DNA of 38,789 nt from a virus. The stretch lies in IMG/VR virus record IMGVR_UViG_3300025687_000014, positions 1 through 38,789 of that record; one strand, written 5' to 3'. A program made the position numbers and the translations under genes. The notes beneath the pieces were generated by a model. The model made no database searches. It was not told the DNA's origin and was given only the letters and a program-made list of their open reading frames with translations. Below, piece by piece: positions 22,009-37,183 of the stretch (positions within the stretch are counted from its first letter, which is position 1; each line of letters begins with the position of its first letter).

Positions 22009-22428
22009 CTACCAACTGATTGACACTTCGACCCTTTCAGAACCACGAGGGCATCGCCACTTTTGCATCGTTATCGTGTCCACCTGGTTGTCGTCAGTCC
22101 ACAAGCCAGCCTCAGAGAGAGCGTCCTCGGTGTGCGACAGTAGGTTCTTCAGGTCAGGCTTCTCCGTGTGGTCTCCGACGCTGCCAGCCTTGTATTTCGG
22201 GGTGTTCTTCTGCCACGGCAAGTAGAAGTTGTAGTCCGCCCGTACTGGTTTGCCAGCAGGAATCGGAAACTGGTCGTTGCCTGCTTCCAACATTGCAAAG
22301 AACGCAGCGTCTACGACCTTCTTCTTCCATTGCTTCACCGCTGGCACATTGAACATGCCTCGGCGGTTAGCCCGTATGCGTGGTCGCTGAGTTGCTGGCA
22401 CGCCCTCTATGGTGAACTCCAGTTTCAT
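22009..22428 (-). CDS. rusA: RusA-like Holliday junction resolvase
   Basis: 139 residues. The family pattern is clear: KPDLKNLLSHTEDALSEAGL (90-109) followed by WTDDNQV (110-116) near the C-terminus, and an N-terminal EGVPATQRPRIRA. RusA enzymes cleave four-way DNA junctions during recombination or before packaging. The usual KPDxDN motif here has Lys (94) at the second Asp position; Asp92, Asp102 and Asp112/113 are kept, so the metal site may differ. ATG overlaps the previous stop (ATGA). It is the last gene before the operon terminator. Confidence 0.9.
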   Translation of the reverse strand: MKLEFTIEGVPATQRPRIRANRRGMFNVPAVKQWKKKVVDAAFFAMLEAGNDQFPIPAGKPVRADYNFYLPWQKNTPKYKAGSVGDHTEKPDLKNLLSHTEDALSEAGLWTDDNQVDTITMQKWRCPRGSERVEVSISW

Positions 22429-22607
22429 CTAGTACCAATCTTTTTATTCGGTACACCCTTCCGTGTACGTTGCCGCACTCCCAAAGGGTAATGCCTCTTC
22501 GTATCCCCGTACTGGTTTACTGGGACTGCTACGTGGCACACAGGGCAGAAGCCACGCTCGATGAACGCTGGTGCTGCTGCCTCATGTGAGCCTTGGCACA
22601 GTCTCAT
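22425..22607 (-). CDS. Small zinc-binding basic protein
   Basis: 60 residues from ATG 22607, which overlaps the previous stop (TAATG). It has FCPVCHVAVPV (one CxxCH knuckle) and an Arg/Lys-rich C-terminus (GVRQRTRKGVPNKK). An upstream-extended frame exists but has poor composition; the coupled ATG is preferred. Possibly nucleic-acid binding. Confidence 0.65.
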   Translation of the reverse strand: MRLCQGSHEAAAPAFIERGFCPVCHVAVPVNQYGDTKRHYPLGVRQRTRKGVPNKKIGTR

Positions 22608-22981
22608 TACGCCTTCATCCTTTGCAGTAATCTGTACTCTTGCGAGTTCGGGTCTTGCCGCCGCTCTTCTACTTCTGCGAAGTGGCGTTCCAGCATGCTT
22701 TCTGAAATCTCGCCCTGTCGCTTGGCGTTCTGCGGTCGCTGCCCGACTCGTATCTCCTGGGCTGCTGAAGCGTGCAGGTATCTCATGGCTGTGTCGAACC
22801 TGTTGATACCTTGTTCCTTCACAGTATCCTCGAAGTCTTCCAGCCACTCGACCGGATACTCTGGAAACTTGTCTACCCACGTTTTCAGTTTCTCGAAGTC
22901 GTGGTTCACCAGCGAACCTTCAGCGTTCAGCTGTATGCCGACATTCTGGAAGCTGGCTAGGGTTGCTTGTGTGAGGTTCAT
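22607..22981 (-). CDS. Hypothetical protein coupled to the base-exchange enzyme
   Basis: 124 residues from ATG 22981, overlapping the stop of the TGT/DpdA-like gene (ATGA). Helical and charged (FEKLKTWVDKFPEYPVEWLEDF, ISESMLERHFAEVEERRQ). No family recognised. The translational coupling to the modification gene makes a related role possible. Confidence 0.6.
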   Translation of the reverse strand: MNLTQATLASFQNVGIQLNAEGSLVNHDFEKLKTWVDKFPEYPVEWLEDFEDTVKEQGINRFDTAMRYLHASAAQEIRVGQRPQNAKRQGEISESMLERHFAEVEERRQDPNSQEYRLLQRMKA

Positions 22982-23592
22982 AGTGCCAACCTTTCTTGCT
23001 GGCTCAATGTTTTCAACCATCCTTCTAGTTTTGGTAAAAGAATGTCAGGAGCGAACACCAAGTAAGTACCATCGGCTGAGTCGTACCCTGACACCGCAGC
23101 AGCTTTAAGTCTGCGCCAACTGTTTACTCGTCCCATGTGCGTCCACTTTCCTTTGTTCTCTGCCTCTACTGCTAACTCGTAGGCTGCTTCGCTGAGTTTC
23201 CATTCAGTCGTTCCACCAATGAACAAGCAATCGAACTCGTCCCACGGAATATCCATGTTCTCTAGTCCGTTCTGTGCAACCAGCGCAGCCCTGTAGCCCT
23301 CTGCACGCAATAGCGGAAACATCGGAAGAGACTTGTCCATTGTTGCTTCTGCATTGCCTACAACGTCTGGGGCTGTGGCAAACAGGCATCGCTTGGAATA
23401 ATCTGCTCGCTCACGCAACCACGCCAGGTATTCTTCTTGGTCGTACTTCTCAGGTTGATTGAAGCAACCCGTATCAGCAGCCCACAGCGTACCGTTGAAG
23501 TCCACCTTGTTACCGATCATAGGTGTAAGCATGTAACCCGTATTCGGGCGACACACCAACGCCTTATTGATTGCGCCAGATAGGTAAATCAT
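22978..23592 (-). CDS. dpdA: TGT/DpdA-like 7-deazaguanine insertase
   Basis: 204 residues. Motifs in order: ADTGCF (39-44, the Asp-Ser/Thr-Gly site), FATAPDVVGN (71-80), VAQNG (105-109), FIGGTTEWK (124-132), HMGRVNS (152-158) and DSADG (171-175). These match the short phage proteins annotated as queuine tRNA-ribosyltransferase and related to DpdA, which exchange guanine in DNA for a 7-deazaguanine. It is much shorter than bacterial Tgt (about 370) and lacks its C-terminal zinc site. It starts inside the transporter gene, with AGGA six bases before ATG 23592. The neighbouring transporter supports a base-salvage role. Confidence 0.85.
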   Translation of the reverse strand: MIYLSGAINKALVCRPNTGYMLTPMIGNKVDFNGTLWAADTGCFNQPEKYDQEEYLAWLRERADYSKRCLFATAPDVVGNAEATMDKSLPMFPLLRAEGYRAALVAQNGLENMDIPWDEFDCLFIGGTTEWKLSEAAYELAVEAENKGKWTHMGRVNSWRRLKAAAVSGYDSADGTYLVFAPDILLPKLEGWLKTLSQQERLAL

Positions 23593-24073
23593 TGCGGTTC
23601 CTGTAAATGTAGAGCGGGATAACGAACGTTAGCGTCATGTATGCCTTACCGACCAATTGACCTTCGATGAACGCAAGGCTACCGAACGCCATCCATAGGA
23701 AGATCACTGAGTCAACGGTCAACCCGCCGATATTGCTGACGGTGATTGCACCCAACCAGTTCCGTTTACGCAGTGGTGAGTAAATAGAGAAATCAACCAA
23801 CTCAGACACGGTAAATGCTGTTGCTGATGCGATTGCAAAAGTTGGCTCAATCCACCAACTCAGGAATCCACCGATAGCAATAGCGACAAGCACCCAATAA
23901 CGACCACCTGATTCATGCAGTAAGTCTCGTAACGTGAATCCTATTCCAGCAAAAAAAACACCAGCTGGTGCTGATAGTCCGAAACCCACCGACACAAACC
24001 CAAACTCTTTTAGTGCTGCGTTTGCCGCAAGAACTGTGCTTGCGAACGCTGCTGCTAGTAATACTCTTACCAC
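23564..24073 (-). CDS. yhhQ: Queuosine-precursor transporter, VUT/YhhQ family
   Basis: 169 residues, about five or six membrane spans. Family motifs: FTLRDLLHE (46-54), ATAFTVSELVDFSIYSPLRKRN (84-105) and SNIGGLTVDSVIF (113-125). YhhQ-type proteins import 7-deazaguanine precursors such as preQ0 and preQ1. GTG start at 24073 with GGAGG seven bases upstream, overlapping the end of the SSB-like gene. It is followed by the DpdA-like gene, so import and insertion are co-expressed. It is shorter than bacterial YhhQ (about 220), as usual in phages. Confidence 0.9.
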   Translation of the reverse strand: MVRVLLAAAFASTVLAANAALKEFGFVSVGFGLSAPAGVFFAGIGFTLRDLLHESGGRYWVLVAIAIGGFLSWWIEPTFAIASATAFTVSELVDFSIYSPLRKRNWLGAITVSNIGGLTVDSVIFLWMAFGSLAFIEGQLVGKAYMTLTFVIPLYIYRNRNDLPIWRNQ

Positions 24074-24789
24074 GGCACGTCCTCCGGTTCACCGTAACCA
24101 TCGTCACCAGATGGCTGCTGCCCACCAGCACCCTGCGCTTCCCATGTGGGCTGCTGTGCTGCGTTGTGTTCTGGTGTTGACTGGAACTCTGGCTGCTGTT
24201 CACTGAGATGCTGTGCGGCTTGCTGGTCGAGTTCCTCGGCAGGGTTGTCCCACTCGGTTTCCTCGACAGTAAACGGTGTCTTGCCAGCCTTCAGCAGAGC
24301 GTAGCCCTCGTGCCATTCAGTCCACATCTCGTCTAGTTGCTCGTCTGCCAGTGTGCCGCCTCGTGCGCCGTGTGCAGCCAGCATCGCAGTCAGCCCGTTC
24401 CATGCTTGCGCTTTGGCTATCCGCTGGTCAACAGAGAGCGTCGGCTGCTGCGGAGCAACGTACTCGTCACGAGGGTCGCCTTGTGGCTGCTCGTAACTGG
24501 GCTGCTGTGCAATCGGTTCGCCGTCAGCCTTCTCGATGCCTTCGATGTCCATGTAGAACTTCGACGGGTCGTTGACCTTGGGCTTCGTCTTCAAGAAGAA
24601 CTTTGCAACCGTGCCGATAGGCGGCTTGCGGTTGTGGTACGACTCAGGTAACTGCCAGAAGCCGTCAATTTCCGTGAACGCTATCTGGGTGTCGTTGTAC
24701 TTGCTGACTGCGGATACGGTCAGCACAGCACCCTCGTAACGGGTCTGCCCTTTGTACTGGCTCTTGATGTCCAAACCTGGGATATTCAT
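24067..24789 (-). CDS. SSB-like single-stranded DNA-binding protein
   Basis: 240 residues from ATG 24789, overlapping the previous stop (ATGA). Residues 1-100 look like an OB fold (YEGAVLTVSAVSKYNDTQIAF, PPIGTVAKFFLKTKPK, FYMDIEGIEKADG). A helical part with Trp residues follows (WNGLTAMLAAHGARG). The tail is long, Gln/Pro/Gly-rich and disordered, ending EPEDVPW. Acidic tips ending in a hydrophobic residue (usually DDDIPF) are the partner-binding signature of SSB. Phage single-strand binding protein is the best reading. Confidence 0.7.
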   Translation of the reverse strand: MNIPGLDIKSQYKGQTRYEGAVLTVSAVSKYNDTQIAFTEIDGFWQLPESYHNRKPPIGTVAKFFLKTKPKVNDPSKFYMDIEGIEKADGEPIAQQPSYEQPQGDPRDEYVAPQQPTLSVDQRIAKAQAWNGLTAMLAAHGARGGTLADEQLDEMWTEWHEGYALLKAGKTPFTVEETEWDNPAEELDQQAAQHLSEQQPEFQSTPEHNAAQQPTWEAQGAGGQQPSGDDGYGEPEDVPW

Positions 24790-24983
24790 TCTGTTTCCTC
24801 TGTCTTGCTGTCCAGTGACCGCAGCCACTCGCGTACTAACTGTTCGCCGTGACCGAATACGGTGATGTCTTTGGGGTTCAATGGGTCTGTAAGAGTGCCG
24901 TCACTAAACGTAATCACTACACCGTGTTCGTTTGCTATAAACCCTCGCAAATCTGCAACGTTCACCAAATATTTATCGTTCAT
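24786..24983 (-). CDS. Small hypothetical early protein
   Basis: 65 residues: an N-terminal beta part (YLVNVADLRGFIANEHGVVITF) followed by a helix and an acidic end. Its stop overlaps the SSB-like start (ATGA), so it is translated with it. No family recognised. Confidence 0.65.
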   Translation of the reverse strand: MNDKYLVNVADLRGFIANEHGVVITFSDGTLTDPLNPKDITVFGHGEQLVREWLRSLDSKTEETE

Positions 24984-24985
24984 AG

Positions 24986-25402
24986 TTACATCGCCCTCTC
25001 TTGCTTGATGGGTTCTACTTTGATCTCAGGCTTCTGCGGAATCAGTGTTGACTCCAGCTTCTCAGTAATCTCGTCGCCCATCTTCCACAGTTGCATTGCC
25101 TTGCGCCCGTCAACCTTGGCTTTCACCACTTTGACTTCCTCGTGTTCGGGTATCAGGCATTCCTCGATGATCTCTGGGTGAGTCTCACCGAATGCTGCAA
25201 GGAACTTGTTTGCGTCGTACTGCCGCTTCGTAGGAATCGTGCTGGTGAACTTAGTAGTTCGCAGTAACTCCTGATTGTTGTGCTGCATGTACGACCAAAT
25301 GATTGCGAGCATCGTGTCGCGCTCGTCGAACATGACCTTCAAGCCTTCAGTTATGTTGTGATAACGCTCGACTGCTTCTTCGATACTGATGTCGTTATTC
25401 AT
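24986..25402 (-). CDS. Hypothetical early protein
   Basis: 138 residues, helical and charged, with a basic C-terminus. First gene after promoter A; ATG 25402 is preceded by the start-associated sequence (GATTGGAGAA at 25408-25417). Context before an SSB-like gene suggests a recombination or replication role, for example a nuclease inhibitor or annealing helper, but no motif supports this. Confidence 0.65.
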   Translation of the reverse strand: MNNDISIEEAVERYHNITEGLKVMFDERDTMLAIIWSYMQHNNQELLRTTKFTSTIPTKRQYDANKFLAAFGETHPEIIEECLIPEHEEVKVVKAKVDGRKAMQLWKMGDEITEKLESTLIPQKPEIKVEPIKQERAM

Positions 25403-25433
25403 CCAGATTCTCCAATCTTGTTATCTGTTGCCC

Positions 25434-25462
25434 AGCATACAGTTATGCTTGCGGGGAGTCAA
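25434..25462 (-). promoter_or_regulatory. Leftward promoter A with palindromic operator
   Basis: Read leftward: TTGACT (25462-25457), 17 bases, TATGCT (25439-25434). The palindrome GCATA-CAGT-TATGC (25435-25448) covers the -10 and part of the spacer, an ideal place for repression. The first gene starts about 32 bases downstream of the -10. Confidence 0.8.
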
Positions 25463-25467
25463 TATAG

Positions 25468-25863
25468 TTAGTCGTGTGTGCATCGGCAGGTCTTGCATTC
25501 TGGGTAGTGGATGCCGTGTTGAAGGGTTGAGTGATCTACCCATCCGGTCATCACGTACCAGATTTTCTTTCCGTCCCTGGTTGGTCGTGGAATTACTGCG
25601 CCTGCATCACGTAGATCGGACACTACCGCTGAGAAGTTGAGCGGTCTGCCAATGGCTTCCCAGATGTCCGTTCTCTCGTGTGGTTGTCCGTCTTTCATGT
25701 AATTGAACAGGCGTACACGTTGCCCTTTCCATCGAGCAAAGTCTTCTGGCTCTGGAATCCACTGTCTCAGGTTGACTTGTTCTTTCCCGCAGACACAGCG
25801 AAGTGTGTTCTGGTAATCGACCTTCCACTGTTCGCGAAAGTCTTCGCACTTATGGTTACTCAT
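25468..25863 (-). CDS. Zinc-containing winged-helix-like protein
   Basis: 131 residues from ATG 25863, overlapping the previous stop (ATGA). Two cysteine pairs near the ends (CVCG near 23-26, CKTCRCTHD at the end) and a central region (RVRLFNYMKDGQPHERTDIWEAIG...FSAVVSDLRDAGAVI) that looks like a winged-helix DNA-binding unit. It might regulate transcription or bind DNA during replication. Function not established. Confidence 0.6.
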   Translation of the reverse strand: MSNHKCEDFREQWKVDYQNTLRCVCGKEQVNLRQWIPEPEDFARWKGQRVRLFNYMKDGQPHERTDIWEAIGRPLNFSAVVSDLRDAGAVIPRPTRDGKKIWYVMTGWVDHSTLQHGIHYPECKTCRCTHD

Positions 25864-26225
25864 CGTGCTTTCTCCATTGGCACTGTGATGTAGCGAGGTC
25901 TGCGCCCGCATTCACGGCAACGTATCGGGTCATCTCGGTCACCCTCGGTGTCTAGGTAAAGCGGGAACGGTCGAGAGCACTTAGGGCAAGCCTTCAGTCT
26001 GTCCCAGTCTTCCAGTTGCACCGTGTCCACTTGCGGGTCGTTAATCATTCGCTGAACCAAGTTCCTTTCCCTGAACGGGTCACGATGTAACGCTGACCTG
26101 CACATCCTGCACTCGAAATATTCAACTTGCTTTCCGCTCCGTAACGTGCGTGTGCGGGAGTAACTGTTCTCTGGTGTGCGTGGGTGTCCTCTACGACAGA
26201 GTGCCACTTGTTCCTGTGTTGTCAT
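25860..26225 (-). CDS. Double zinc-ribbon protein
   Basis: 121 residues. ATG 26225 is chosen because the start-associated sequence with GGAG lies six bases upstream. First unit: CRRGHPRTPENSY with CRMCR (a pattern common in actinophage zinc proteins). Second unit: CPKCSRPFPL with CRECGRR. It has no HNH triad. It overlaps the end of the HTH gene by 35 bases. Confidence 0.7.
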   Translation of the reverse strand: MTTQEQVALCRRGHPRTPENSYSRTRTLRSGKQVEYFECRMCRSALHRDPFRERNLVQRMINDPQVDTVQLEDWDRLKACPKCSRPFPLYLDTEGDRDDPIRCRECGRRPRYITVPMEKAR

Positions 26226-26448
26226 TAGATTCTCCAATCTTTTGTAGTTGCCTGTTCAGCTTCTTCTCGTACTTATCCAACTTCTCTGCTGCCATTAGTG
26301 ACGGCGTGCTGGCTATGTTGGCTTCGGGCGGTGCTAACCAGTTGTCTACGGTTGGCTTGGATACGCCGACTGCCTTGGCGAACTTTGCCCTGGATAGCCC
26401 TGCTTGCTTGAAGAGAGCGGTTACTGTTGCTCGGTTCCATTTAGTCAT
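26191..26448 (-). CDS. Xre/Cro-like helix-turn-helix regulator
   Basis: 85 residues. Residues 5-40 form a five-helix Xre-type HTH start: VTALFKQAGLSRAKFAKAVG followed by VSKPTVDNWLAP. The C-terminal half is a helical, charged part that could dimerise. A small cytoplasmic DNA-binding protein of this type is the natural candidate to bind the four palindromic operators of the early promoters. Direct evidence is lacking. Confidence 0.75.
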   Translation of the reverse strand: MTKWNRATVTALFKQAGLSRAKFAKAVGVSKPTVDNWLAPPEANIASTPSLMAAEKLDKYEKKLNRQLQKIGESNDNTGTSGTLS

Positions 26449-26565
26449 CTAGTTCTCTCTTTCTACGTCACGCAGGTATTCAGCATGGTCAACCATTCGT
26501 TCGATGCAGTCTTCACACCGGCACTCGTCTGCGCCAATGAGTTCTGCTTGGCATTCATAGGGCAT
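26449..26565 (-). CDS. Tiny cysteine-rich zinc protein
   Basis: 38 residues: ECQAELIGADECRCEDCIER supplies four cysteines for one zinc site, followed by a helix. Its start overlaps the previous stop (TGATG), and its stop is directly next to the HTH start (TAGATG). Confidence 0.6.
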   Translation of the reverse strand: MPYECQAELIGADECRCEDCIERMVDHAEYLRDVEREN

Positions 26566-26882
26566 CACTCACCCCCTGCTGTCGGCTGGAACTTGCCACG
26601 CTCTAACGTGTAGTCAGACCAGCCTTCGTGACCCATTACAGGCGTGTGGTGAATACCGCACTTTTGATTACCGGGATGATCGTCAAAGCAAGCCAACAAA
26701 GCAGCGGAACACATGCCCTCGATAATCTTGTCGAGTTCGTCGGCTGCGTACTTCAAGCCCTCGTCCGTGCCATTACGAAATACGTCTCCGTAAGTTTTGT
26801 ACTCGCCATTCCACTGGGCAGCCTCAGCACGCAGCCTGTCTCGCAGTTCTTCTAGTGGGCTAGTCATCTTGGTGTCGGTCAT
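26565..26882 (-). CDS. Hypothetical early protein
   Basis: 105 residues; helical first half (LEELRDRLRAEAAQWNGEY, GLKYAADELDKIIEGM) and a Cys/His-containing second half. ATG 26882 overlaps the previous stop (ATGA). No family recognised. Confidence 0.6.
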   Translation of the reverse strand: MTDTKMTSPLEELRDRLRAEAAQWNGEYKTYGDVFRNGTDEGLKYAADELDKIIEGMCSAALLACFDDHPGNQKCGIHHTPVMGHEGWSDYTLERGKFQPTAGGE

Positions 26883-27043
26883 TTGGTTTCTCGCTTACTT
26901 AGGCGGTAGTGCACAAACGCACCAGACATATGCCCAACAAAGAACCCAAAACTACTTGCGTTTGCGTGTTCTGAGCCAAAGATAGTTCCGCCAATAGCAC
27001 TACCGACGACAACGATTGCTAGCCAAATTAGAATGCCACCCAT
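26879..27043 (-). CDS. Small two-span membrane protein
   Basis: 54 residues: MGGILIWLAIVVVGSAIGGT, a short loop, then SSFGFFVGHMSGAFVHY and a basic tail. Both ends overlap neighbouring genes (TGATG and ATGA), which supports it as real. A holin-like role is possible in shape, but it lies in the early operon. Confidence 0.6.
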   Translation of the reverse strand: MGGILIWLAIVVVGSAIGGTIFGSEHANASSFGFFVGHMSGAFVHYRLSKRETK

Positions 27044-27276
27044 CACTCACGCTCCTGCAAAGTCTCAGCATCGACGTAAACGTAGTCCTCGTGTTCCGTC
27101 TTCGGGTCTTCAAACTTCAACTCTGCTTCGATCATGCCCTTGTAAAGCCCGCTACCCTTGGCGTACAGAGCGTTCACTGTTCCGCCTGGGTATTCGTCGT
27201 GGTCGTACTGTTTGCCGACCTCTACGGTCAACTCGTATGGTGTGCCACCGTCGTAGGTGACTGCTGTGATAGTCAT
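27043..27276 (-). CDS. Hypothetical acidic early protein
   Basis: 77 residues from ATG 27276, which follows two GGAG sites and a variant start-associated sequence (27284-27293). It is a beta-type, acidic protein (ITAVTYDGGTPYELTVEVG, IEAELKFEDPKTEHEDYVYV). First gene after promoter B. No family recognised. Confidence 0.65.
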   Translation of the reverse strand: MTITAVTYDGGTPYELTVEVGKQYDHDEYPGGTVNALYAKGSGLYKGMIEAELKFEDPKTEHEDYVYVDAETLQERE

Positions 27277-27303
27277 TCTCCAGTCCTCCAATCTGTTTTC
27301 ACT

Positions 27304-27333
27304 AGGGTATGCATAACAGTATGCGGTTGTCAA
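27304..27333 (-). promoter_or_regulatory. Leftward promoter B with palindromic operator
   Basis: Read leftward: TTGACA (27333-27328), 18 bases, TACCCT (27309-27304). The palindrome GCATA-ACAG-TATGC lies in the spacer (27311-27324). It drives the genes from 27276 leftward. Confidence 0.65.
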
Positions 27334-27353
27334 CCCTTAGTTGTCACGTTCAG

Positions 27354-27382
27354 TTGCGTTCCCTCGTGGTTGTCTGTATATT
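27354..27382 (+). promoter_or_regulatory. Rightward promoter into the gene-free region
   Basis: TTGCGT (27354-27359), 17 bases, TATATT (27377-27382). It points opposite to all neighbouring genes, and no protein start follows within 600 bases, which suggests a non-coding transcript beginning near 27389. Confidence 0.6.
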
Positions 27383-27388
27383 TTTAGG

Positions 27389-27500
27389 GTCGAATGAGTA
27401 GAGTTGATGCGTAAATATTTTGTAGCCCCTCTCAGATGTGGACAAAATGCGCACCAGCTATTTGTTCGACACCACAACTGACGAGGGGTTATTTATTTAA
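27389..27500 (+). ncRNA. Candidate small RNA ending in a long hairpin
   Basis: Predicted from promoter 27354-27382 to the U-rich end after the hairpin. Hairpin arms: AGCCCCTC (27424-27431) with GAGGGGTT (27483-27490), TCAG/CTGA, TGTGG/CCACA and ACAAA/TTTGT, about 22 pairs, a six-base bulge (27466-27471) and a 14-base loop. TTATTTATTTAA follows, so the structure can also end transcription. Expected length is about 110 nt. No known RNA family recognised. Confidence 0.45.
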
Positions 27501-27875
27501 CCCAGCCAACTCGTCTTCATAGGCACACATGGTGGTTCCACAACCTGTCGCAACACCAGATCAAAGGTCGGGCGTACACAGGCAAGTGGCTAAGTTCTGA
27601 TAAAAGCCACCACCAAAGCCTGCGGGCGTGTCACCAGTATTGAGAGAGTCTAGGAGATCAACCGGACGTTGGCAGAGAGTCCCTAGAACCGCGCCTCTGC
27701 GGTATACAAATCGTGGCGACCCTTTTCTTTTTCTTTCTTTTGCTGGTTTTCTTTCTGTTTTCTTTTCAGAAGTGGAGAGAAGCGACCCACCTTAAGAAGT
27801 ATCTGGAACGAAGTGGATAGATACATGCCAGTAAACTGAGTCAACTAGAGAACGGAGTAACCCGTTAACCAGTAA

Positions 27876-27913
27876 GCCCCCGCAGCGGTAAACGAGTACC
27901 GGACTACGGGGGC
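27876..27913 (-). terminator. Hairpin after the methyltransferase operon
   Basis: GCCCCCG (27876-27882) pairs with CGGGGGC (27907-27913), with an inner CGGT/ACCG pair. It lies 23 bases downstream of the leftward methyltransferase gene. It lacks a T-run, so termination is likely but not certain. Confidence 0.55.
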
Positions 27914-27936
27914 AACGGTTGGAGAACTGTGTGTGG

Positions 27937-28473
27937 TTACGTGAGGCTCATAGTTTGCTGGAGTTTGCGCTCGACGGTAACGATGGTGTCGTTGTGTCCA
28001 CCACCATGAAATACCAGTAACACTTCGATCATTTCAAAGCCTCGCTCTTTACCGAACCCTGCGCTGTTCCACCCACAACAGATCACAATTCCATTCGGCT
28101 TGATCTTCGGATGTGCCAACGTCTTGACCCTTCGATACAGTCTCCCACTCTGGGTTTCTTCCATACCGACCTTGCGACCGACATTGCTATAGACCTCTGA
28201 GATTTGGCGTGGTGAATACGGCGGGTCGAATATGAACCCGTCCAGTTCACCGTCTACTAGCGACGCTGTAAAGTCCTCTGCGTCTATGTGTGAAGTAGTC
28301 GGGGCTTCTGGGTTTAGATCGTTTGTATACGTCGCTGGACTGTTCCAGCCAGAAAACGGGTCTGCCCATATTTCACCTTTTTTCACGTACCGATTCACCA
28401 GTTCTTCAATTGGCTTTATCGTAAACGTGTGCTTACTGGGCATTGCAAACACTCTGGAAAATTGGATGCTCAC
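27937..28473 (-). CDS. DPPY-type DNA adenine methyltransferase-like protein
   Basis: 178 residues. It carries IWADPFSGWNSP (35-46, a motif I-like S-adenosylmethionine site), DPPYSP (83-88, the catalytic motif IV of N6-adenine and related amino-methyltransferases) and a C-terminal beta part (GIVICCGWNS, EVLLVFHGGGHNDTIVTVERK). It has no separate target-recognition domain, as in many small phage enzymes. Start is GTG 28473, overlapping the previous stop (TAGTG). It may protect DNA together with the 7-deazaguanine route. Confidence 0.75.
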   Translation of the reverse strand: MSIQFSRVFAMPSKHTFTIKPIEELVNRYVKKGEIWADPFSGWNSPATYTNDLNPEAPTTSHIDAEDFTASLVDGELDGFIFDPPYSPRQISEVYSNVGRKVGMEETQSGRLYRRVKTLAHPKIKPNGIVICCGWNSAGFGKERGFEMIEVLLVFHGGGHNDTIVTVERKLQQTMSLT

Positions 28474-28667
28474 TACTTCAACCCATCCAGAAACTTGCGT
28501 GCCTTAGTTACGACCGCTTCGTTGTCTAGTTCCAGTGTGCCAGCGTCGTAGTCGTCCACCAGTTGCTTGATTACTTCGGTTGCTTCGGCGAGCGTCCCAA
28601 GAATCTCAAATATGTTCACACCTTGCATTTCCAAAATCGTTTCTGCTAACTGTCTTGGTTGCGTCAT
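28473..28667 (-). CDS. Small helical early protein
   Basis: 64 residues, helical and acidic (QLAETILEMQGVNIFEILGT, ATEVIKQLVDDYDAGTL). ATG 28667 follows GGGAGAAGACTAA. Coupled to the methyltransferase. No family recognised. Confidence 0.65.
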   Translation of the reverse strand: MTQPRQLAETILEMQGVNIFEILGTLAEATEVIKQLVDDYDAGTLELDNEAVVTKARKFLDGLK

Positions 28668-28711
28668 TTAGTCTTCTCCCCTAGCACTTCTTGAGTGCTG
28701 GTGTAGTTTGC

Positions 28712-28885
28712 TTAGTTATCTTGTTCTCCCGTGTGTACGTGTTCTGTGCCTGCTGTGCAATCACATGTTGCTGATCTTTCCATGCGGTCTAGGGCTGCTG
28801 TGAGTCTGTCTGCTGCATCGTAGTCGCCAAGTGACCGAAACTCGTCTACTAGGTCACGCAGCGGTTGCAGGTTGGGGTTAGTCAT
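28712..28885 (-). CDS. Small helical early protein
   Basis: 57 residues: MTNPNLQPLRDLVDEFRSLG, then YDAADRLTAALDRMERSATC and a polar tail with CDC. Start overlaps the previous stop (ATGA). No family recognised. Confidence 0.6.
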   Translation of the reverse strand: MTNPNLQPLRDLVDEFRSLGDYDAADRLTAALDRMERSATCDCTAGTEHVHTGEQDN

Positions 28886-29073
28886 CCGTTTCGTTCTCCG
28901 TGTTTACAGCTGCCGAATTCGTAGCCGTCTGTTATGTGTTCTCCGCACGTAGCGCAGTCCGCTGGCAGTTTCCAGCCGGTGTATACGTGGTTGTAGTTCG
29001 GCGCGTGTCTACCGCAATACGTGGCGTACGTTGGTCTGCCCTGGTTGTCTGTGGTTACTTCGACGTAGAGCAT
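28882..29073 (-). CDS. Small zinc-binding protein
   Basis: 63 residues with CGRH near 20, CATCGEH near 40 and CKHG near 56: ligands for one or two zinc ions. Its ATG follows the upstream stop directly (TAGATG). Confidence 0.65.
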   Translation of the reverse strand: MLYVEVTTDNQGRPTYATYCGRHAPNYNHVYTGWKLPADCATCGEHITDGYEFGSCKHGERNG

Positions 29074-29241
29074 CTAATATTTCACGCTGTAATTACGCTT
29101 AGCTGCTGCACGCCAGTGATTAAGTCGCTGGCAGTCGTTGCAAATGTCGTTAATTGGCTTGGGCTTGCGCCAGAACTGCCACCACCGGATATTTGCGTTC
29201 CATTGGCGACGGTCTAATCGTATCCAGTAGCAATCGTGCAT
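29074..29241 (-). CDS. Small Trp/Arg-rich protein
   Basis: 55 residues from ATG 29241, preceded by AGGGGGA nine bases upstream. A longer form from ATG 29301 is possible but has no ribosome site. Contains WNANIRWWQFWRKPKP and a CNDC pair. No family recognised. Confidence 0.5.
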   Translation of the reverse strand: MHDCYWIRLDRRQWNANIRWWQFWRKPKPINDICNDCQRLNHWRAAAKRNYSVKY

Positions 29242-29309
29242 GATCGTGTTCCCCCTAGGTGGTGATACTTGTAGCAGCGGAGCATTCCACAGGTACGGCA
29301 TTTAGTCAT
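29214..29309 (-). CDS. Possible tiny zinc-ribbon peptide
   Basis: 31 residues (MTKCRTCGMLRCYKYHHLGG and onward), with CRTCG plus two further Cys and paired His. It begins with the same Met-Thr as many genes of this block and overlaps the next gene. The ribosome site (AAGAG) is weak, so it may not be translated. Confidence 0.35.
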   Translation of the reverse strand: MTKCRTCGMLRCYKYHHLGGTRSCTIATGYD

Positions 29310-29314
29310 CTTGG

Positions 29315-29512
29315 TTAACTCTTGAAGTTTCCACCGTTAGCGACTACGTGTGCCACGGTTTGCCATGCGTACTCATAGTGTTCGCCGGTTTCGATGTTTC
29401 GGACAATCGGGAAATCCATCTTTGCACCTGCGATTTGTGCCGGTTGCCCATTGAGCGTGACTGGCGTGTTAACCAGATCGTATCGTTCATCTTCTTTGAT
29501 AATGCGTTGCAT
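29315..29512 (-). CDS. Small early protein
   Basis: 65 residues, beta-type (LVNTPVTLNGQPAQIAGAKM, FPIVRNIETGEHYEYAW). The start-associated sequence (variant ATTGGAGAA, 29521-29530) precedes ATG 29512 by ten bases. It resembles small phage proteins of unknown function. Confidence 0.65.
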   Translation of the reverse strand: MQRIIKEDERYDLVNTPVTLNGQPAQIAGAKMDFPIVRNIETGEHYEYAWQTVAHVVANGGNFKS

Positions 29513-29533
29513 AACTTAGGTTCTCCAATTTCT

Positions 29534-29707
29534 CTAACTCTCGATACGGTCGATTGCGTCCTTGATGCGGTTGAGTGCGCCAGTGGTCACAATGTCATTC
29601 GGGTTTATGAAACCTCTTGCAATAGCAAAGTCAATCTGCCCGACGATCTGCTTAGACGCAGTTATCAGCGCATCGACTGCTAACTCTTGTTCGGTGTACT
29701 TAGTCAA
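29534..29707 (-). CDS. Small helical early protein (TTG start)
   Basis: 57 residues: MTKYTEQELAVDALITASKQ, then IVGQIDFAIARGFINPNDIV and a helix. TTG 29707 is supported by the start-associated sequence (29714-29723), whose GGAG lies eight bases upstream. No family recognised. Confidence 0.65.
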   Translation of the reverse strand: MTKYTEQELAVDALITASKQIVGQIDFAIARGFINPNDIVTTGALNRIKDAIDRIES

Positions 29708-29795
29708 CTTAGGTTCTCCAATCCAGTTATCAGGCTATCTAAAACGCCTGCATATGCGCCCCAGGTTCCTAGTCTGGAACGCATAAACGGGTGAG

Positions 29796-30092
29796 TTAGA
29801 ACGATTGCACTATAAAAGCGGTTCCGTCGATGTCGATAACGGTTGTTGACTGTGCCACGTCGTCGATTGATTTGTACTCGTCGCCGTAGTCCTGTTGGAA
29901 TTCTTCAATGCTTTCGTACTCTGAGAAATCAACACAGATAGCGATAACGTCGAGTTCGATTTCTTCGCCAAGAGCATTTTCCAGTTCGATTTGATCGGCG
30001 TAGAGTGCTTTTAGCCCATCATATGAGAAGTTATCAGGTCGAATCTGTCGGAAAGCGTCGATAAAGTCGGATTCGTAAACTGTCTGTTTCAT
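29796..30092 (-). CDS. Conserved acidic phage protein
   Basis: 98 residues from ATG 30092, with the start-associated sequence at 30100-30109. Very acidic: YDGLKALYADQIELENALGE, IELDVIAICVDFSEYESIEE and TTVIDIDGTAFIVQSF. This pattern belongs to a small protein common in many unrelated phages, of unknown function. The charge suggests DNA mimicry, but that is a guess. Confidence 0.75.
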   Translation of the reverse strand: MKQTVYESDFIDAFRQIRPDNFSYDGLKALYADQIELENALGEEIELDVIAICVDFSEYESIEEFQQDYGDEYKSIDDVAQSTTVIDIDGTAFIVQSF

Positions 30093-30158
30093 TTTGGGAT
30101 TCTCCAATCCGTTTAGTGGTTATCCACAGACTGCCAGTTCTCCTAGGTTGGCAGTTTC

Positions 30159-30170
30159 GCCGTATACGGC
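30159..30170. promoter_or_regulatory. 12-bp perfect palindrome, possible protein site
   Basis: GCCGTATACGGC lies between two leftward genes; beside it is a CTGCCA/TGGCAG hairpin (30131-30154). No gene fits in this 70-base gap. Either element could be a binding site or a weak terminator. Confidence 0.35.
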
Positions 30171-30182
30171 TCGTCAGTGTGG

Positions 30183-30371
30183 CTATGAAATCGAAACGAT
30201 TGTGATGTTATCGGTTAGATCGGTTCGTTCGACCTTTTCTTTTCGAGGTGTTACGTGCCTGAACTGGTCGCACCAAATGCAAATCTTGATTGTGCTGGTA
30301 GGGCGTGGTTTGTGAAACTCGTGCCGTGGGGCTTTGGGGCAGTTGTTGTAGCTAGCGTAAGGCGTAGTCAT
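30183..30371 (-). CDS. Small Cys/His-containing early protein
   Basis: 62 residues; start-associated sequence at 30380-30389 before ATG 30371. Has CPKAPRHEFH and CIWC, a possible zinc site, and a polar C-terminus. No family recognised. Confidence 0.65.
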   Translation of the reverse strand: MTTPYASYNNCPKAPRHEFHKPRPTSTIKICIWCDQFRHVTPRKEKVERTDLTDNITIVSIS

Positions 30372-30409
30372 GTTTTCAGTTCTCCAATCGTCACTTAGTA
30401 GGCTAGTTG

Positions 30410-30586
30410 TTATCCAGCGTGTATCCAGTTGCCAACGGCGTTTCCGTTGCTGTCTCGAATGATTCCAACGTATTCGCCATTGGTCACACTGTCGGCAATA
30501 CGTGCCAGAACTTCTCTAATCTCGTTCGGGTTGTCCTCAAACGCTGCGTTATCTGTCTCGATTGAGATATTAAGTGTTGTAGTCAC
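30410..30586 (-). CDS. Conserved small phage protein (GTG start)
   Basis: 58 residues: MTTTLNISIETDNAAFEDNP, EIREVLARIADSVTNGEYVG and IIRDSNGNAVGNW. The pattern of a strand with acidic Ala-Phe, then a helix with Leu-Ala, then a Gly-rich hairpin with Asp-x-Asn-Gly-Asn is recurrent in phages. GTG 30586 is set by the variant start-associated sequence (30593-30602). First gene after promoter C. Confidence 0.7.
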   Translation of the reverse strand: MTTTLNISIETDNAAFEDNPNEIREVLARIADSVTNGEYVGIIRDSNGNAVGNWIHAG

Positions 30587-30613
30587 TTTAGGAACTCCAA
30601 TCCGTTGTGTAGG

Positions 30614-30645
30614 TACATGATTGCATAGTGTTATGTAGGTGTCAA
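30614..30645 (-). promoter_or_regulatory. Leftward promoter C with palindromic operator
   Basis: Read leftward: TTGACA (30645-30640) with the operator ACATA-ACAC-TATGC (30636-30623; one mismatch to the palindrome) in the spacer. The -10 is weak (AATCAT at 17 bases). It is back to back with the rightward promoter at 30653. Confidence 0.6.
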
Positions 30646-30652
30646 GAGATAT

Positions 30653-30681
30653 TTGAGGTTTGTTGTTGAATTGGGTACGAT
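30653..30681 (+). promoter_or_regulatory. Rightward promoter for terS
   Basis: TTGAGG (30653-30658), 17 bases, TACGAT (30676-30681). It leaves a leader of about 200 bases before terS. A second candidate, TTGTTA-17-TAACCT, lies at 30805-30833. Confidence 0.5.
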
Positions 30682-30890
30682 GGTACTCAGCGGTTTAGCG
30701 TGTACCAGCAAACATGTATGGCGAGTCTGGAAGTAGCTGCTCTAGGCGATTCGACCCAATAGGGAATTGAATCTTGCGCCGGTAAACAGAAGAAACTTTC
30801 TCTTTTGTTAAGTTTTCTCTTTGAAGTTAACCTCCAGTAGCATCCGAAGTGAACTTGTGAACGCATGGAGGCACTAGGTAAACTGTCCTC

Positions 30891-31364
30891 ATGACTACCG
30901 AAACAAAGCTAACTGATAGACAACAGATGTTCGCGAAAGAGTACGCATACTCAGGTAACGGTACTCAGTCAGCAAAGAATGCAGGGTACTCAGTTAACGG
31001 TGCTCACGTTACTGCTAGCCAACTACTAACTATTCCTAAGGTTAAACAAGAGATAGCACGTATCAGAGAACTGGAAGACTCTAAGAGAACCGTTGACCAG
31101 AACTTCGTAATCCAGAGACTTATACACTTCGCGACCAACGCAGAAGTCGAGTCCAACGCAGTACGCGCAACCGAACTATTAGGTAAACATCTCCGTATGT
31201 TCGTTGACGTATCTGAGTCCACAGTTCACCACGACACACAGCCGTTACAGCCGTTCACACTAGCCGAACTACTGGCACTGCGTGAACAGGCTCTCTCTGT
31301 GGACGCGAACACCCAAGACGGAGAGTTCAAGGTTCTCCCTGAGAGTAAACCGGCAGAAGATTAG
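30891..31364 (+). CDS. terS: Terminase small subunit
   Basis: 157 residues. The N-terminal half matches the Terminase_2 small subunit: LTDRQQMFAKEYAYSGNGTQ, SAKNAGYSVNGAHVTASQLL and IPKVKQEIARIRELE, an HTH DNA-binding unit that recognises the packaging site. A helical oligomerisation part follows (NAVRATELLGKHLRMFVD), and a C-terminal tail. It is alone in its direction: its neighbours on both sides run leftward, and terL is 2.3 kb away. Confidence 0.88.
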   Translation: MTTETKLTDRQQMFAKEYAYSGNGTQSAKNAGYSVNGAHVTASQLLTIPKVKQEIARIRELEDSKRTVDQNFVIQRLIHFATNAEVESNAVRATELLGKHLRMFVDVSESTVHHDTQPLQPFTLAELLALREQALSVDANTQDGEFKVLPESKPAED

Positions 31365-31429
31365 TTCTCCGGTTCTCCCTGTTTCCCACTGTTTCCCAAG
31401 ACGTAGCGGTTAGAGAAGTTTTCAGACGC

Positions 31430-31458
31430 GAAAACGCCCACACTGGAAAGCATGGGCG
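31430..31458 (-). terminator. Leftward terminator between converging units
   Basis: CGCCCA (31435-31440) pairs with TGGGCG (31453-31458) around a 12-base loop. Read leftward it is followed by TTTTCG. It ends the three-gene operon from promoter D and sits just after terS. Confidence 0.6.
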
Positions 31459-31482
31459 CATCGGTTGGATTCGGTTGTTGGG

Positions 31483-31701
31483 CTAGGTTTGGATGTTGGC
31501 GAAGTCTCCGCGAAGTTCCTTGATTCGGTTTCGCATTTCGACCACCTTATTTTCAACTTCCAGGATGTCCGAGATATTGAGCGCACCAATGATGTGTGCA
31601 TTCTGTTCAAGGTCTAACAGCTGCCTAATCTCGTATGCGAGCGCATCTGCATTCATCATGAGCGTTCCGGTGTAGTCTCGGACTGTGGGGTGTACTGTCA
31701 T
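31483..31701 (-). CDS. Small helical early protein
   Basis: 72 residues from ATG 31701, with a start-associated sequence (31708-31717). Coiled-coil potential (NADALAYEIRQLLDLEQNAH, ILEVENKVVEMRNRIKELRG). Last gene of the mini-operon. No family recognised. Confidence 0.65.
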   Translation of the reverse strand: MTVHPTVRDYTGTLMMNADALAYEIRQLLDLEQNAHIIGALNISDILEVENKVVEMRNRIKELRGDFANIQT

Positions 31702-31730
31702 CTCAATTGCTCCAATCAATCGGCTGTTAA

Positions 31731-31943
31731 CTACTGTGGAATGTATGCCAGTTCGGCTTGGCAGTCGGTGCATGGCAGGTCGGCAGGTTCGCCAGTGATT
31801 ACGCTGCGTGTCAGGTCTCTAAGTTCCGCTCTGTGAGTCCAACACAGCACATCTTCAACACTGTTTCCATTGCTGGACTCCCACGATGTCCAGCGTAACT
31901 CTGTACCTGTACGGTCAATGCGTTTTTGGATGTAGTCCTTCAT
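31731..31943 (-). CDS. Small zinc-binding early protein
   Basis: 70 residues; start-associated sequence at 31952-31961. The arrangement CWTHRAEL...CTDCQAEL provides a zinc site. Basic N-terminus. No family recognised. Confidence 0.65.
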   Translation of the reverse strand: MKDYIQKRIDRTGTELRWTSWESSNGNSVEDVLCWTHRAELRDLTRSVITGEPADLPCTDCQAELAYIPQ

Positions 31944-31968
31944 ATCAGTTGTTCTCCAATCGTTCTAG

Positions 31969-32160
31969 TTAGTGTGACGCTGCGAAAGTGTCGTATTTTT
32001 GCATTAGCCCGAAGTGGTCATGGCACTCATCGGAGCAAAACGCTTTCCCGTTGTCAACTTGGAAAACTCCATCGTTGATGTCAGGGTAAGCGAAGTCAAT
32101 CCATCGCTTGCACTCTGCACACTGTCGGTAGTCGGTATCGTCGTACTGCTGGTAAGTCAT
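31969..32160 (-). CDS. Small zinc-ribbon early protein
   Basis: 63 residues from ATG 32160, with the start-associated sequence at 32167-32176. CAECKRW near 15 and CSDECHDH near 42 form a MYND/TRASH-like zinc unit. First gene after promoter D. Confidence 0.7.
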   Translation of the reverse strand: MTYQQYDDTDYRQCAECKRWIDFAYPDINDGVFQVDNGKAFCSDECHDHFGLMQKYDTFAASH

Positions 32161-32191
32161 TTCAATTTCTCCAATCAACTTGTGTTCATCT

Positions 32192-32220
32192 ATCGTTGCA
32201 TACCGTTATGCATCTGTCAA
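32192..32220 (-). promoter_or_regulatory. Leftward promoter D with palindromic operator
   Basis: Read leftward: TTGACA (32220-32215) with the operator GCATA-ACGG-TATGC (32211-32198) in the 17-base spacer. The -10 (AACGAT, or ACGATA one base further) is weak. It drives the mini-operon 32160-31483. Confidence 0.6.
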
Positions 32221-32667
32221 CAGGTAAACGGTACGAGTTGGCTCGGATTGCGTGTGGTTGCCGTGAGGTTGGCTGGCAACCTGGCTAGCTGGTCACTGGA
32301 AGACATGGGAACGGCAGAGGACACGGCACACTGAGGACTAGGGAGACATGATGACGATGGATGGCTGTGTGTGTGTGCTGGTGGTGGTGGTGGTGTGTGT
32401 GTGTTGGTGGGCGGGTATGTCTTGGCGGATGTTGGTTGTGATGTTGTTGTTAGCCCGTAAAAATTCCGCACCTAATTTTGAGACCTCTAGTTTTCCGCTG
32501 CCTGCCCGCTGTCTGCTAGAGTTCTGTGTGACCGTCTGAGGCGTTTGTGTGTTCTCCGTGGGCATTGTCCGTGCCTGGTTCCCCAGTTTGCTGCGCCTTG
32601 GGCGGTCTCTTTGTTTGCGGGACGTGCTAATGTGAGTTCACGGGACATGAAAGAGTGGGGATTATTT
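32221..32667. other. Gap with GT-rich tract, near the terminase genes
   Basis: No confident gene in 450 bases. Bases about 32367-32460 are almost only G and T on the plus strand, including runs of (GT)n and (GGT)n. A GGTTG/CAACC hairpin lies at 32267-32281, and an extended -10 candidate (TGCTAATGT) near 32627 precedes the gene at 32668. It may be a packaging or origin site. Confidence 0.5.
32348..32539 (+). CDS. Doubtful membrane-like reading frame in the GT-rich tract
   Basis: 63 residues; the translation begins with a Cys/Val/Trp run that follows from the GT repeat itself. An AGGGAG site is near the double ATG. It could be a small membrane protein, but the composition is what a GT repeat gives in any frame. 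Confidence 0.2.
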   Translation: MMTMDGCVCVLVVVVVCVCWWAGMSWRMLVVMLLLARKNSAPNFETSSFPLPARCLLEFCVTV

Positions 32668-32928
32668 ATGTTGGACAGGTTTGAGTTAGAGCGTTGGGTT
32701 AAAGACATTGATGACCGATTGCGTCGTTTAGAAGACTCGCCTGATCGTTCTGAGAACCGCTGTTTTGAGCCTTTTATGTCTAATGGTGTGTTCACTCCAT
32801 GCAACAACACCCTTGGCTGGCACAACCGTCCTGATGTTTACCACCCATTTAACGAGTCTTTGAGTGATGCTGTTTCTGCGTGGGGCGAACTTATGGGGCA
32901 GGAAAAGCCCACTGATGCCGTAGAATAA
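32668..32928 (+). CDS. Hypothetical first late protein
   Basis: 86 residues from ATG 32668, with GTGGGG seven bases upstream; ATG 32647 would add seven residues but has no site. N-terminal helix (RFELERWVKDIDDRLRRLED) and a polar part with two Cys. First gene of the terL operon. No family recognised. Confidence 0.55.
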   Translation: MLDRFELERWVKDIDDRLRRLEDSPDRSENRCFEPFMSNGVFTPCNNTLGWHNRPDVYHPFNESLSDAVSAWGELMGQEKPTDAVE

Positions 32929-32935
32929 CCCCGTT

Positions 32936-33088
32936 ATGTCTACTCAGATACCAATATGTGTTGCGTGTGAGAAGAAGCGGTACGACTTGTACCAGATAGA
33001 TGCTTTGCAAGACGAGTGGTTGTGTGAGGACTGTCTGGATGCGACTGTGTTGACTCACATGATGTTGACTGATGGAGAGCAAGAGTGA
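32936..33088 (+). CDS. Small zinc-ribbon protein
   Basis: 50 residues with CVAC (8-11) and CEDC (30-33), a simple four-cysteine zinc ribbon. Its stop overlaps the next start (GTGA). Confidence 0.65.
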   Translation: MSTQIPICVACEKKRYDLYQIDALQDEWLCEDCLDATVLTHMMLTDGEQE

Positions 33089-33228
33089 CTGATTTCTCTG
33101 TTTCCTCTGTGGACACGTTTCAGATGCCACGGTCTACGAGATTCCCGCAGTGTTCCGAGCAGCCGTGTATTTACCATGTTTACAAGAACGGACGTTGCAA
33201 AAAACATCAAGAGAACAACGATGGATGA
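33085..33228 (+). CDS. Small Cys/His-containing protein
   Basis: 47 residues from GTG 33085. Three Cys and two His in QCSEQPCIYH and RCKKH suggest one zinc site. Both ends overlap neighbours. Confidence 0.55.
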   Translation: MTDFSVSSVDTFQMPRSTRFPQCSEQPCIYHVYKNGRCKKHQENNDG

Positions 33229-33424
33229 ACTCCAGAAGATCATCGACACGGGAGTTCTTGAAGTAAAAGATGGGGATTACTACACAATTACACTTCAATT
33301 CGATGAAGAAGAATGGGAGCAGGTTTCGGAGTTATACAAAATATTTCCAGCGGAACCTACTTCAGATTGGATGAAGGACTTAATTCTTGGTAAACGCCGT
33401 ATCTACAAGCATCCAGAACCATGA
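33221..33424 (+). CDS. Small acidic protein
   Basis: 67 residues from ATG 33221, overlapping the previous stop. MDELQKIIDTGVLEVKDGDY, then YTITLQFDEEEWEQVSELYK: a small alpha/beta protein. Stop overlaps the next start (ATGA). Confidence 0.6.
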   Translation: MDELQKIIDTGVLEVKDGDYYTITLQFDEEEWEQVSELYKIFPAEPTSDWMKDLILGKRRIYKHPEP

Positions 33425-33654
33425 AAATTACCCTTCTTAAATACTGTGATGTGATCGTCGAAGATCATTACGGTGTTGGCTTTCACAAATACGGACCGGC
33501 AACATCTTGTTTACTCCGTTCTCTTATGTCCATGAAGAACAGTGATTACAACTTAGTGAATCTCGACCGTAAACGATGGGATGAGGCTAGCACCGAACAA
33601 GAAGATGGCTCAATGCTTTTGAGTTGCGGGTGTAAGTATCAGGAAACCGCGTAG
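33421..33654 (+). CDS. Small hypothetical protein before terL
   Basis: 77 residues; ATGA overlap with the preceding gene. Mixed alpha/beta with CGCKYQ at the end. No family recognised. Confidence 0.6.
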   Translation: MKITLLKYCDVIVEDHYGVGFHKYGPATSCLLRSLMSMKNSDYNLVNLDRKRWDEASTEQEDGSMLLSCGCKYQETA

Positions 33655-33666
33655 TAAACTCTGAGA

Positions 33667-35184
33667 ATGGCGACTGAGACACCGACTTATACAGTACGTG
33701 ACCTAGAGCGAGAGATCGTTTCTAGGTCTTTTGTTCATTTTCTGGAACACGTAAAACTGCTCGACCCGCCTACTGCCACATCTCAGGGCGGAATTATCCA
33801 ACTGAAACTGTGGAAGCACATCAAAGAAGCCGCTGTTTTACTGGCTGGCTCCGATACTGAAGACCCGAAGAGACTCATCTCTGTACTCAAAAGCCGCCAG
33901 ATTGGGTGGTCGTGGATTCTGGCTGCGTATGCCACGTGGAAAGCCCAGTACCACGAAGGCGCAAACGTACTTATCTTCTCGCAAGGACAACTTGAATCCA
34001 GCGTGTTCCTTGGCAAGTGCAAGACCATCATGGAAAACTTGCCTCCGCATTTGCAAACTGGCACTGGTCGGTCGAACGACACCACAGTTACGTTCCCGTC
34101 CATGAAATCCAAGATTACCGCACTGCCGTCAACTGAGAATGCGGGTCGTGGTGAGACTGCAACGCTTGTAATTCAAGACGAAGCGGACTTTCACGAGAAC
34201 CTGGAACTGAACTACGCAGCCATCAAGCCAACAATTGACCGTGGCGCACAACTGATTCAGGTCTCAACGATCAACAAAAAGACCGCTGGCTCTCTATTTA
34301 AAGAGATTTACCGTAATTCCGAGACAAACGGCTTCCACAAAGTGTTTCACGGCTGGCGCAGTGTCCCAGACAGAGACGACGAGTGGCACGCACGGGTGAA
34401 GAAAGAGGCTCCAACCTCTGAGGGCATGACTCCTGAACTCTACATGGAGCAGGAACACCCAGAGACTGAAGAAGAAGCATTACGTCCAACACGGGCAATG
34501 GCTGCATTCGACACAGATGCACTTGAATCTATGCAGAATGACGCTAAAGACCCTGTTGAAACGAGAAATGGGGTGGTCAATATCTACCAGAAGCCTGCTG
34601 TCGGGAAGCGGTATGCGGCTGGAACGGACACTTCCCACGGAACAGGAAACGACTATGCAACTACCGCTATCATTGATGTTGAAACTGGTTACGTGGTTGC
34701 CGATGTTGATTCTCAAACGCTTGCTCCAGAGCATCTTGCCCAGGAATCCGTTCGGCTCCTTGAAGACTACGGCAATCCGATCTGGGCTATCGAAGATAAC
34801 GACTGGGGTCAACTCACAATCGACAAAGCGAGAGACCTCAAATACCCAAGACTCTACGAAAGGCGTAATCCCAACGGTCAACCTTCAGGAAGGGTTGGTT
34901 GGCATACGGATTCCCGCTCTCGCCCGCTTCTCTGGGGTGAGCTTATCGAAGCTGTTCGAGAAAGATTGATTACAATTCCCTCTAAAAACGGGCTTTCACA
35001 GTTCTCAACCGTCATCAGAAACCCTGATAAGGACGGTCGCATCGAAGCAATGGTCGGCACACATGATGACTACCCTATGGCAGTTGGGTTAGCATGGCAG
35101 ATGCGGAAAGAGGCATATCATCAAGATTCCAAGATCAAAGTTATCTCTCGGAAAGAAAGACTTCGCAGGCTAGGCAAACTCTAA
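33667..35184 (+). CDS. terL: Terminase large subunit
   Basis: 505 residues. ATPase domain: Walker A variant KSRQIGWS (75-82), Walker B LVIQDEAD (167-174) with catalytic Glu172, coupling motif QVST (198-201). RNase-H-like nuclease: GTDTSHG (319-325, Asp321), WAIEDND (373-379, Glu376) and THDDYPMAVGLA (465-476, Asp467/468). The Walker A lacks Gly-Lys but has the upstream Lys typical of this terminase class. The enzyme pumps and cuts DNA at the portal. Start ATG 33667; the portal begins at the base after its stop. Confidence 0.97.
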   Translation: MATETPTYTVRDLEREIVSRSFVHFLEHVKLLDPPTATSQGGIIQLKLWKHIKEAAVLLAGSDTEDPKRLISVLKSRQIGWSWILAAYATWKAQYHEGANVLIFSQGQLESSVFLGKCKTIMENLPPHLQTGTGRSNDTTVTFPSMKSKITALPSTENAGRGETATLVIQDEADFHENLELNYAAIKPTIDRGAQLIQVSTINKKTAGSLFKEIYRNSETNGFHKVFHGWRSVPDRDDEWHARVKKEAPTSEGMTPELYMEQEHPETEEEALRPTRAMAAFDTDALESMQNDAKDPVETRNGVVNIYQKPAVGKRYAAGTDTSHGTGNDYATTAIIDVETGYVVADVDSQTLAPEHLAQESVRLLEDYGNPIWAIEDNDWGQLTIDKARDLKYPRLYERRNPNGQPSGRVGWHTDSRSRPLLWGELIEAVRERLITIPSKNGLSQFSTVIRNPDKDGRIEAMVGTHDDYPMAVGLAWQMRKEAYHQDSKIKVISRKERLRRLGKL

Positions 35185-37173: not shown

Positions 37174-37183
37174 AGATTTAACG

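Follow-up and report, generated by a model that had tools for sequence, protein, structure and literature searches.

A candidate operator palindrome shared by four leftward phage promoters

In an uncultured phage, the palindrome GCATA-N4-TATGC recurs just behind the -35 box at four promoters that point leftward. The window analyzed here is the entire IMG/VR virus record IMGVR_UViG_3300025687_000014 (38,789 nucleotides), and the promoters, referred to as A to D, all act on its minus strand (Table 1). Sequence comparisons make a strong case that the palindromes represent one operator shared by the four promoters. On balance, we think it probable that they are bound by a single dimeric, phage-encoded helix-turn-helix (HTH) repressor, the most likely candidate being an 85-amino-acid XRE-type protein encoded within the third unit. 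The promoters and their genes would make up what is probably the early regulon of a phage group without cultured members, deduced from sequence alone.

The original prediction had placed the palindrome beside TTGAC[AT] at four positions, and all four sites were found there, three of them exact and the one at promoter B with a single mismatch. Exactly three exact copies of GCATA-N4-TATGC are present in the record, compared to 0.015 expected under a dinucleotide model. Allowing one mismatch yielded only the four promoter sites in the whole record. With up to two mismatches, 9 matches were obtained versus 10.7 expected, which corresponds to the chance level, and the operator set therefore comprises exactly four sites. 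The genome-wide motif scan that had been suggested as a check thus revealed no further members: the palindrome is located at four out of four promoters and nowhere else, and no copy falls inside a confident gene, so that it is not equally frequent within genes. The core CATA-N4-TATG was observed four times (0.22 expected), and each copy closely follows a leftward-reading TTGAC[AT]; the co-occurrence of palindrome and TTGAC[AT], likewise observed four times, has an expectation of 0.0018. When the sequence was shuffled 300 times, the largest family of palindromes beside TTGAC[AT] comprised one member (262 shuffles) or two members (38 shuffles) and never more. Recurrence of the palindrome by itself was rejected as proof, since about one-third of the shuffles gave some family with arms of 5 base pairs (bp) and three copies. 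The earlier statement that the arms are kept while the center varies holds for the invariant part CATA-N4-TATG, but the central bases are not wholly free, as three of the four sites start with AC in the center when read on the minus strand.

A common register, TTGACA-N3-palindrome, is seen in promoters A, B and C, the 14-mer occupying the end of a 17-18 bp spacer up to the -10 box. Promoter D shows a different register, TTGACT-N8-palindrome; here the palindrome is moved by 5 bp relative to the -35 box, and its right arm together with the next T represents the -10 box itself. In both arrangements, the operator consequently overlaps elements used by RNA polymerase. The original description is made more precise by this: all four promoters read the minus strand, and three of them have one spacing in common. 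The start codons following the promoters are located at 32160, 30586, 27276 and 25402. The distance between -10 box and start codon is similar in all four cases (about 28-32 nucleotides), in support of the -10 boxes assigned here and also of the deviating register of D, and the palindrome is found 33-38 nucleotides ahead of the start codon at every promoter. The sequences upstream of promoters A to C do not resemble each other.

TRTGn is a known extended -10 element, and the right arm TATGC doubles as such an element (TATGn). The motif might thus be a mere promoter consensus of this phage group, with a left arm that arose by chance or was inherited by promoter duplication. This would agree with the TRTGn formed by the right arm and the next bases as well as with the occurrence of the string TTGACA-N3-GCATA-N4-TATGC-TATAAT in many IMG/VR contigs. 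Nevertheless, in a comparison sample of viral promoters of the type TTGACA-N12-TATGCTAT (127 distinct spacers among the matches listed, a sample and no census), GCATA was present at spacer positions 4-8 in 0 of 127, the spacers being merely A-rich; the left arm therefore appears to be an added feature and no promoter element. The 5-bp shift in promoter D argues for an element separate from the promoter, the dissimilar upstream regions of A to C speak against duplication, and in the related phage G001 (see below) both arms are changed symmetrically at all three promoters. Taken together, we regard an explanation by promoter consensus as hardly tenable.

The string TTGACA-N3-GCATA-N4-TATGC was detected in many unrelated viral contigs, with at least 89 matches for N3 and at least 30 for N4, mostly followed by a TATAAT-like -10 box. 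These are single sites within the DNA examined, except for L124 with two promoter sites and L202 with a second palindrome lacking TTGAC. An HTH homologue was looked for in the same DNA and found in none of these contigs. They were not counted as relatives and are read as convergent or chance occurrences. In L124 (IMGVR_UViG_3300031760_001346), an unrelated phage without an HTH homologue, the two promoters at 4241 and 5811 have the form TTGAC[AT]-N3-GCATA-N4-TATGC-TATCAT, which may reflect convergent use of the same operator layout.

Conservation was evaluated in related phage sequences. Contig L008, 99.98% identical over 25899-35262, has kept promoters A, B and C. In contig L004, the operator and -10 box of promoter A are retained with one inserted base (N4 instead of N3), and the first gene of unit A is missing although the promoter remains. 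The exact palindrome was searched for in G001-G008 and was absent, bar chance one-mismatch matches. For G001 (a contig of L009/L086), the TerL of which is 89% identical to that of the window phage, this absence at first seemed to refute a shared element, but alignment of the homologous promoters changed the picture. Promoters B and C of G001 align with their window homologues in such a way that the surrounding bases are kept and the 14-mer is changed, and a third G001 promoter is found at position A. Within 20 kb of G001, there are exactly three copies of CGTAC-N2-GTAC (about 0.05-0.1 expected), all of them in the homologous promoter slot. Compared to the window 14-mer the change is symmetric, with A to G at position 3 and T to C at position 12 plus fixed C6/G9, while C2, T4, A5, T10, A11 and C14 are kept. 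Within IMG/VR, the G001-type full-promoter pattern with TTGAC and NANAAT was found only in G001, at both fitting sites. Promoter D is absent from G001, where the homologous gene starts a few bases after the upstream gene, and a comparable set of spacer palindromes was looked for in the other TerL relatives (G002-G006 and G008) and not found. In G001, conservation thus fails at the level of the exact letters and holds for the element itself, whose symmetric change is paralleled by changes in the HTH protein. The chance controls, the retention in L008 and L004 and, above all, the replaced yet symmetric 14-mer in the G001 slot strongly support a shared operator.

The syntenic HTH homologue of G001, encoded at 9422-9742 of L086, is 51% identical to the window protein over 71 amino acids. 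The predicted recognition helix reads SKPTVDNWL in the window phage and SKNAVDKWL in G001; S30, K31, V34, D35, W37 and L38 are kept, whereas P32 is changed to N, T33 to A and N36 to K. Operator and recognition helix have both changed in one phage pair, as would be expected of a cognate repressor and its operator, and this covariation is suggestive of the HTH protein as the cognate repressor. The original proposal of this protein as the single regulator is thereby made likelier, and we infer both its identity as the repressor and the direction of control. Homologues were sought in IMG/VR, phage records and genome contigs, yielding only the window phage, G001 and a marginal match in L085 (21 residues, E 1e-4). 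The nearest solved sequences are the antitoxins HigA and GraA with E-values of only 0.027-0.2. Mapping of base contacts from the HigA and GraA papers was too indirect and was used only to place the changed residues in the predicted recognition helix.

Several points weigh against a repressor encoded at 26191-26448. Its HTH_3 match is weak (23.0 bits at a gathering cut-off of 23), the covariation rests on one informative relative, i.e. a single phage pair, and many early open reading frames are without family match, so that another small DNA-binding protein might be the regulator. In addition, promoter C has a poor -10 box, and conservation of the right arm alone is little proof of an operator since it is partly explained by the extended -10 element. 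A related view would accept the operators as real and assign them to a different protein of the phage or to a transcription factor of the host, the regulon then sensing the host state or a different phage signal. This might be argued from the fact that most of the small early open reading frames have no family assignment and that the HTH protein is a candidate binding protein. However, the operator letters differ at homologous promoters of two related phages, which is unexpected if both used one fixed host factor, an argument softened by the possibility that the window phage and G001 have different hosts. The differences of the syntenic phage HTH protein at recognition-helix residues also speak against a host factor, and we consider this alternative unlikely.

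It could further be argued that the leftward units are switched on by a positive regulator acting at the palindromes, e.g. an activator that binds the spacer in the manner of MerR, or an alternative initiation factor. A site in the spacer is generally known from MerR-type promoters, and the window promoters have weak -10 hexamers. Nevertheless, the spacers of 17-18 bp correspond to the sigma-70 optimum and not to the 19-20 bp that MerR proteins are known to correct, the -35 boxes are near-perfect TTGACA, good -10 boxes (CATAAT) accompany the site in the same slot in G001, and the site in promoter D covers the -10 box itself. Activation is thus a very unlikely function of these sites.

If the palindromes are operators of the HTH repressor, host RNA polymerase would read the four leftward promoters first, and the repressor would be made from within unit C. 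A repressor dimer would then bind the 14-bp palindrome in the spacer against the -10 box (A, B and C) or over it (D). Because of this position, the bound repressor would exclude polymerase, and all leftward units including its own would be turned down, so that the early regulon would be under negative feedback of the Cro or Aca type. By comparison with the Aca and Cro-type systems, the HTH protein would bind the sites, binding would mean repression and the units would be expressed early.

The two phages would provide a candidate repressor-operator pair with a natural specificity variant, consisting of a symmetric half-site change and three changes in the recognition helix. Moreover, operator position singles out the small leftward open reading frames, hardly any of which has a known function, as a co-regulated group of candidates for a role in counter-defence or in takeover of the host. 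A doubtful but more far-reaching idea is that the leftward units are accessory anti-host genes swapped behind fixed repressor-controlled promoters, the repressor-operator pair drifting fast between close relatives (CATA to CGTAC half-sites) and giving each lineage a private early regulon. If so, operator scanning could list unknown host-takeover genes of this phage group.

The features are listed in Table 1. Contig L007 bridges the ends of the record by joining window 32822-38789 to 1-6519 with an overlap of 127 bases (1-127/38663-38789); the genome is therefore circularly permuted or terminally redundant and probably complete. Gene content, i.e. a RusA resolvase, a DNA methyltransferase and small open reading frames opposite to the structural genes, suggests that the leftward units are early genes. 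An extended Shine-Dalgarno leader, GATTGGAGA, is common to many leftward genes (window 22009-32180, minus strand) and is also present in G001. The Vut_1 family protein within the leftward regulon (Pfam E 2.8e-8) is possibly a queuosine-precursor transporter. The phage also encodes TatC, a subunit of the Sec-independent translocase that is unusual in a phage genome; a close relative was looked for in the genome contigs and none was found. Upstream of promoters C and B, three non-coding blocks (27416-27513, 27634-27766 and 30718-30822) are in their best parts 82-85% identical to G001, compared to 73-78% for most of the flanking coding DNA. On the plus strand they contain predicted hairpins common to G001, followed by a pyrimidine-rich tract, with a few compensatory changes. 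Rfam and tRNA searches of these blocks gave no match, and plus-strand non-coding RNAs or terminators are possible. In G001, units of the type CAGTCAGC/CAGTCAGCCAAC form a long tandem repeat (L086, 15890-16110) between promoter A and the TerL region.

Table 1. Promoters, units and further features of the window, and the homologous promoters of G001.
Feature	Position	Strand	Sequence or content
Promoter A	32192-32220	minus	TTGACA-gat-GCATAACGGTATGC-AACGAT; operator 32198-32211, exact; spacer 17; extended -10 TATGC
Unit A	31483-32160	minus	small open reading frames 31969-32160, 31731-31943, 31483-31701 downstream of promoter A; no family match
Promoter B	30617-30645	minus	TTGACA-cct-ACATAACACTATGC-AATCAT; operator 30623-30636, one mismatch; spacer 17
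Unit B	27937-30586	minus	about ten small open reading frames and DNA methyltransferase 27937-28473 (phrog_11619)
Promoter C	27304-27333	minus	TTGACA-acc-GCATACTGTTATGC-ATACCCT; operator 27311-27324, exact; weak -10, ATACCC at spacer 17 or TACCCT at 18
Unit C	25468-27276	minus	small open reading frames downstream of promoter C, including the HTH gene
HTH protein, 85 amino acids	26191-26448	minus	in unit C; Pfam HTH_3, 8e-5; PHROG transcriptional regulators; proposed repressor
Promoter D	25434-25462	minus	TTGACT-ccccgcaa-GCATAACTGTATGC-T; operator 25435-25448, exact; -10 TATGCT, spacer 17
Unit D	22009-25402	minus	24986-25402, 24786-24983, 24067-24789, 23564-24073 (Vut_1), 22978-23556, 22607-22981, 22425-22607, RusA-like resolvase 22009-22428
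Leftward region	22009-32160	minus	small open reading frames, RusA-like resolvase, DNA methyltransferase, Vut_1-type transporter
TerS	30891-31364	plus	packaging gene
TerL	33667-35184	plus	packaging gene
Tail-fibre-like gene		plus	
TatC	20736-21599		Pfam TatC, E 3e-33
G001 promoter		leftward	TTGATA-tctt-GCGTACGTGTACGC-CATAAT
G001 promoter		leftward	TTGACG-cctg-GCGTACATGTACTC-CATAAT
G001 promoter		leftward	TTGACA-gcca-ACGTACAGGTACAC-GAAAAT

In the lambdoid phages lambda, 434 and P22, the XRE-fold dimers CI and Cro act on palindromic operators over early promoters. The system proposed here resembles them in its palindromic operators at early promoters and in a phage-encoded HTH protein within the regulon, but it has single instead of tandem sites at each promoter, and a divergent cI/cro switch was not found. 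A lysogeny immunity repressor would be expected in a temperate phage carrying an integrase or partition genes; no integrase was detected among the proteins scanned, most of which had no match and which did not include every open reading frame. Aca1 and Aca2 bind inverted repeats overlapping the -10 and -35 boxes and repress by blocking polymerase (PMC8434428). As in the acr-aca operons with Aca1, Aca2 or Aca3, a small HTH protein is accompanied by an inverted repeat at the promoter of its own unit; here, however, the site is common to four promoters that serve several units. The HTH protein matched Aca3 with an insignificant E-value of 0.72 in a comparison with chains of solved structures. No known anti-CRISPR is located nearby, the neighboring small open reading frames being without family match and no dedicated Acr search having been made. 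The antitoxins HigA and GraA recognize palindromic sites within their own promoters (PMC6987408, PMC6393540), but no toxin partner was identified for the window protein, which matches them only at the E-values given above. In Cluster A mycobacteriophages, one repressor acts on many sites, and repressor and site motifs vary in concert when related phages are compared (PMC6550527), which parallels the covariation between the window phage and G001. Their stoperators are asymmetric and spread over the genome (PMC9283540), in contrast to the four symmetric sites found here only at promoters. The proposed system would operate in the manner of an early autorepressor of the Aca or Cro type whose regulon spans several promoters. 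Such control is ordinary among phages, and here it is unusually well supported for one deduced purely from sequence.

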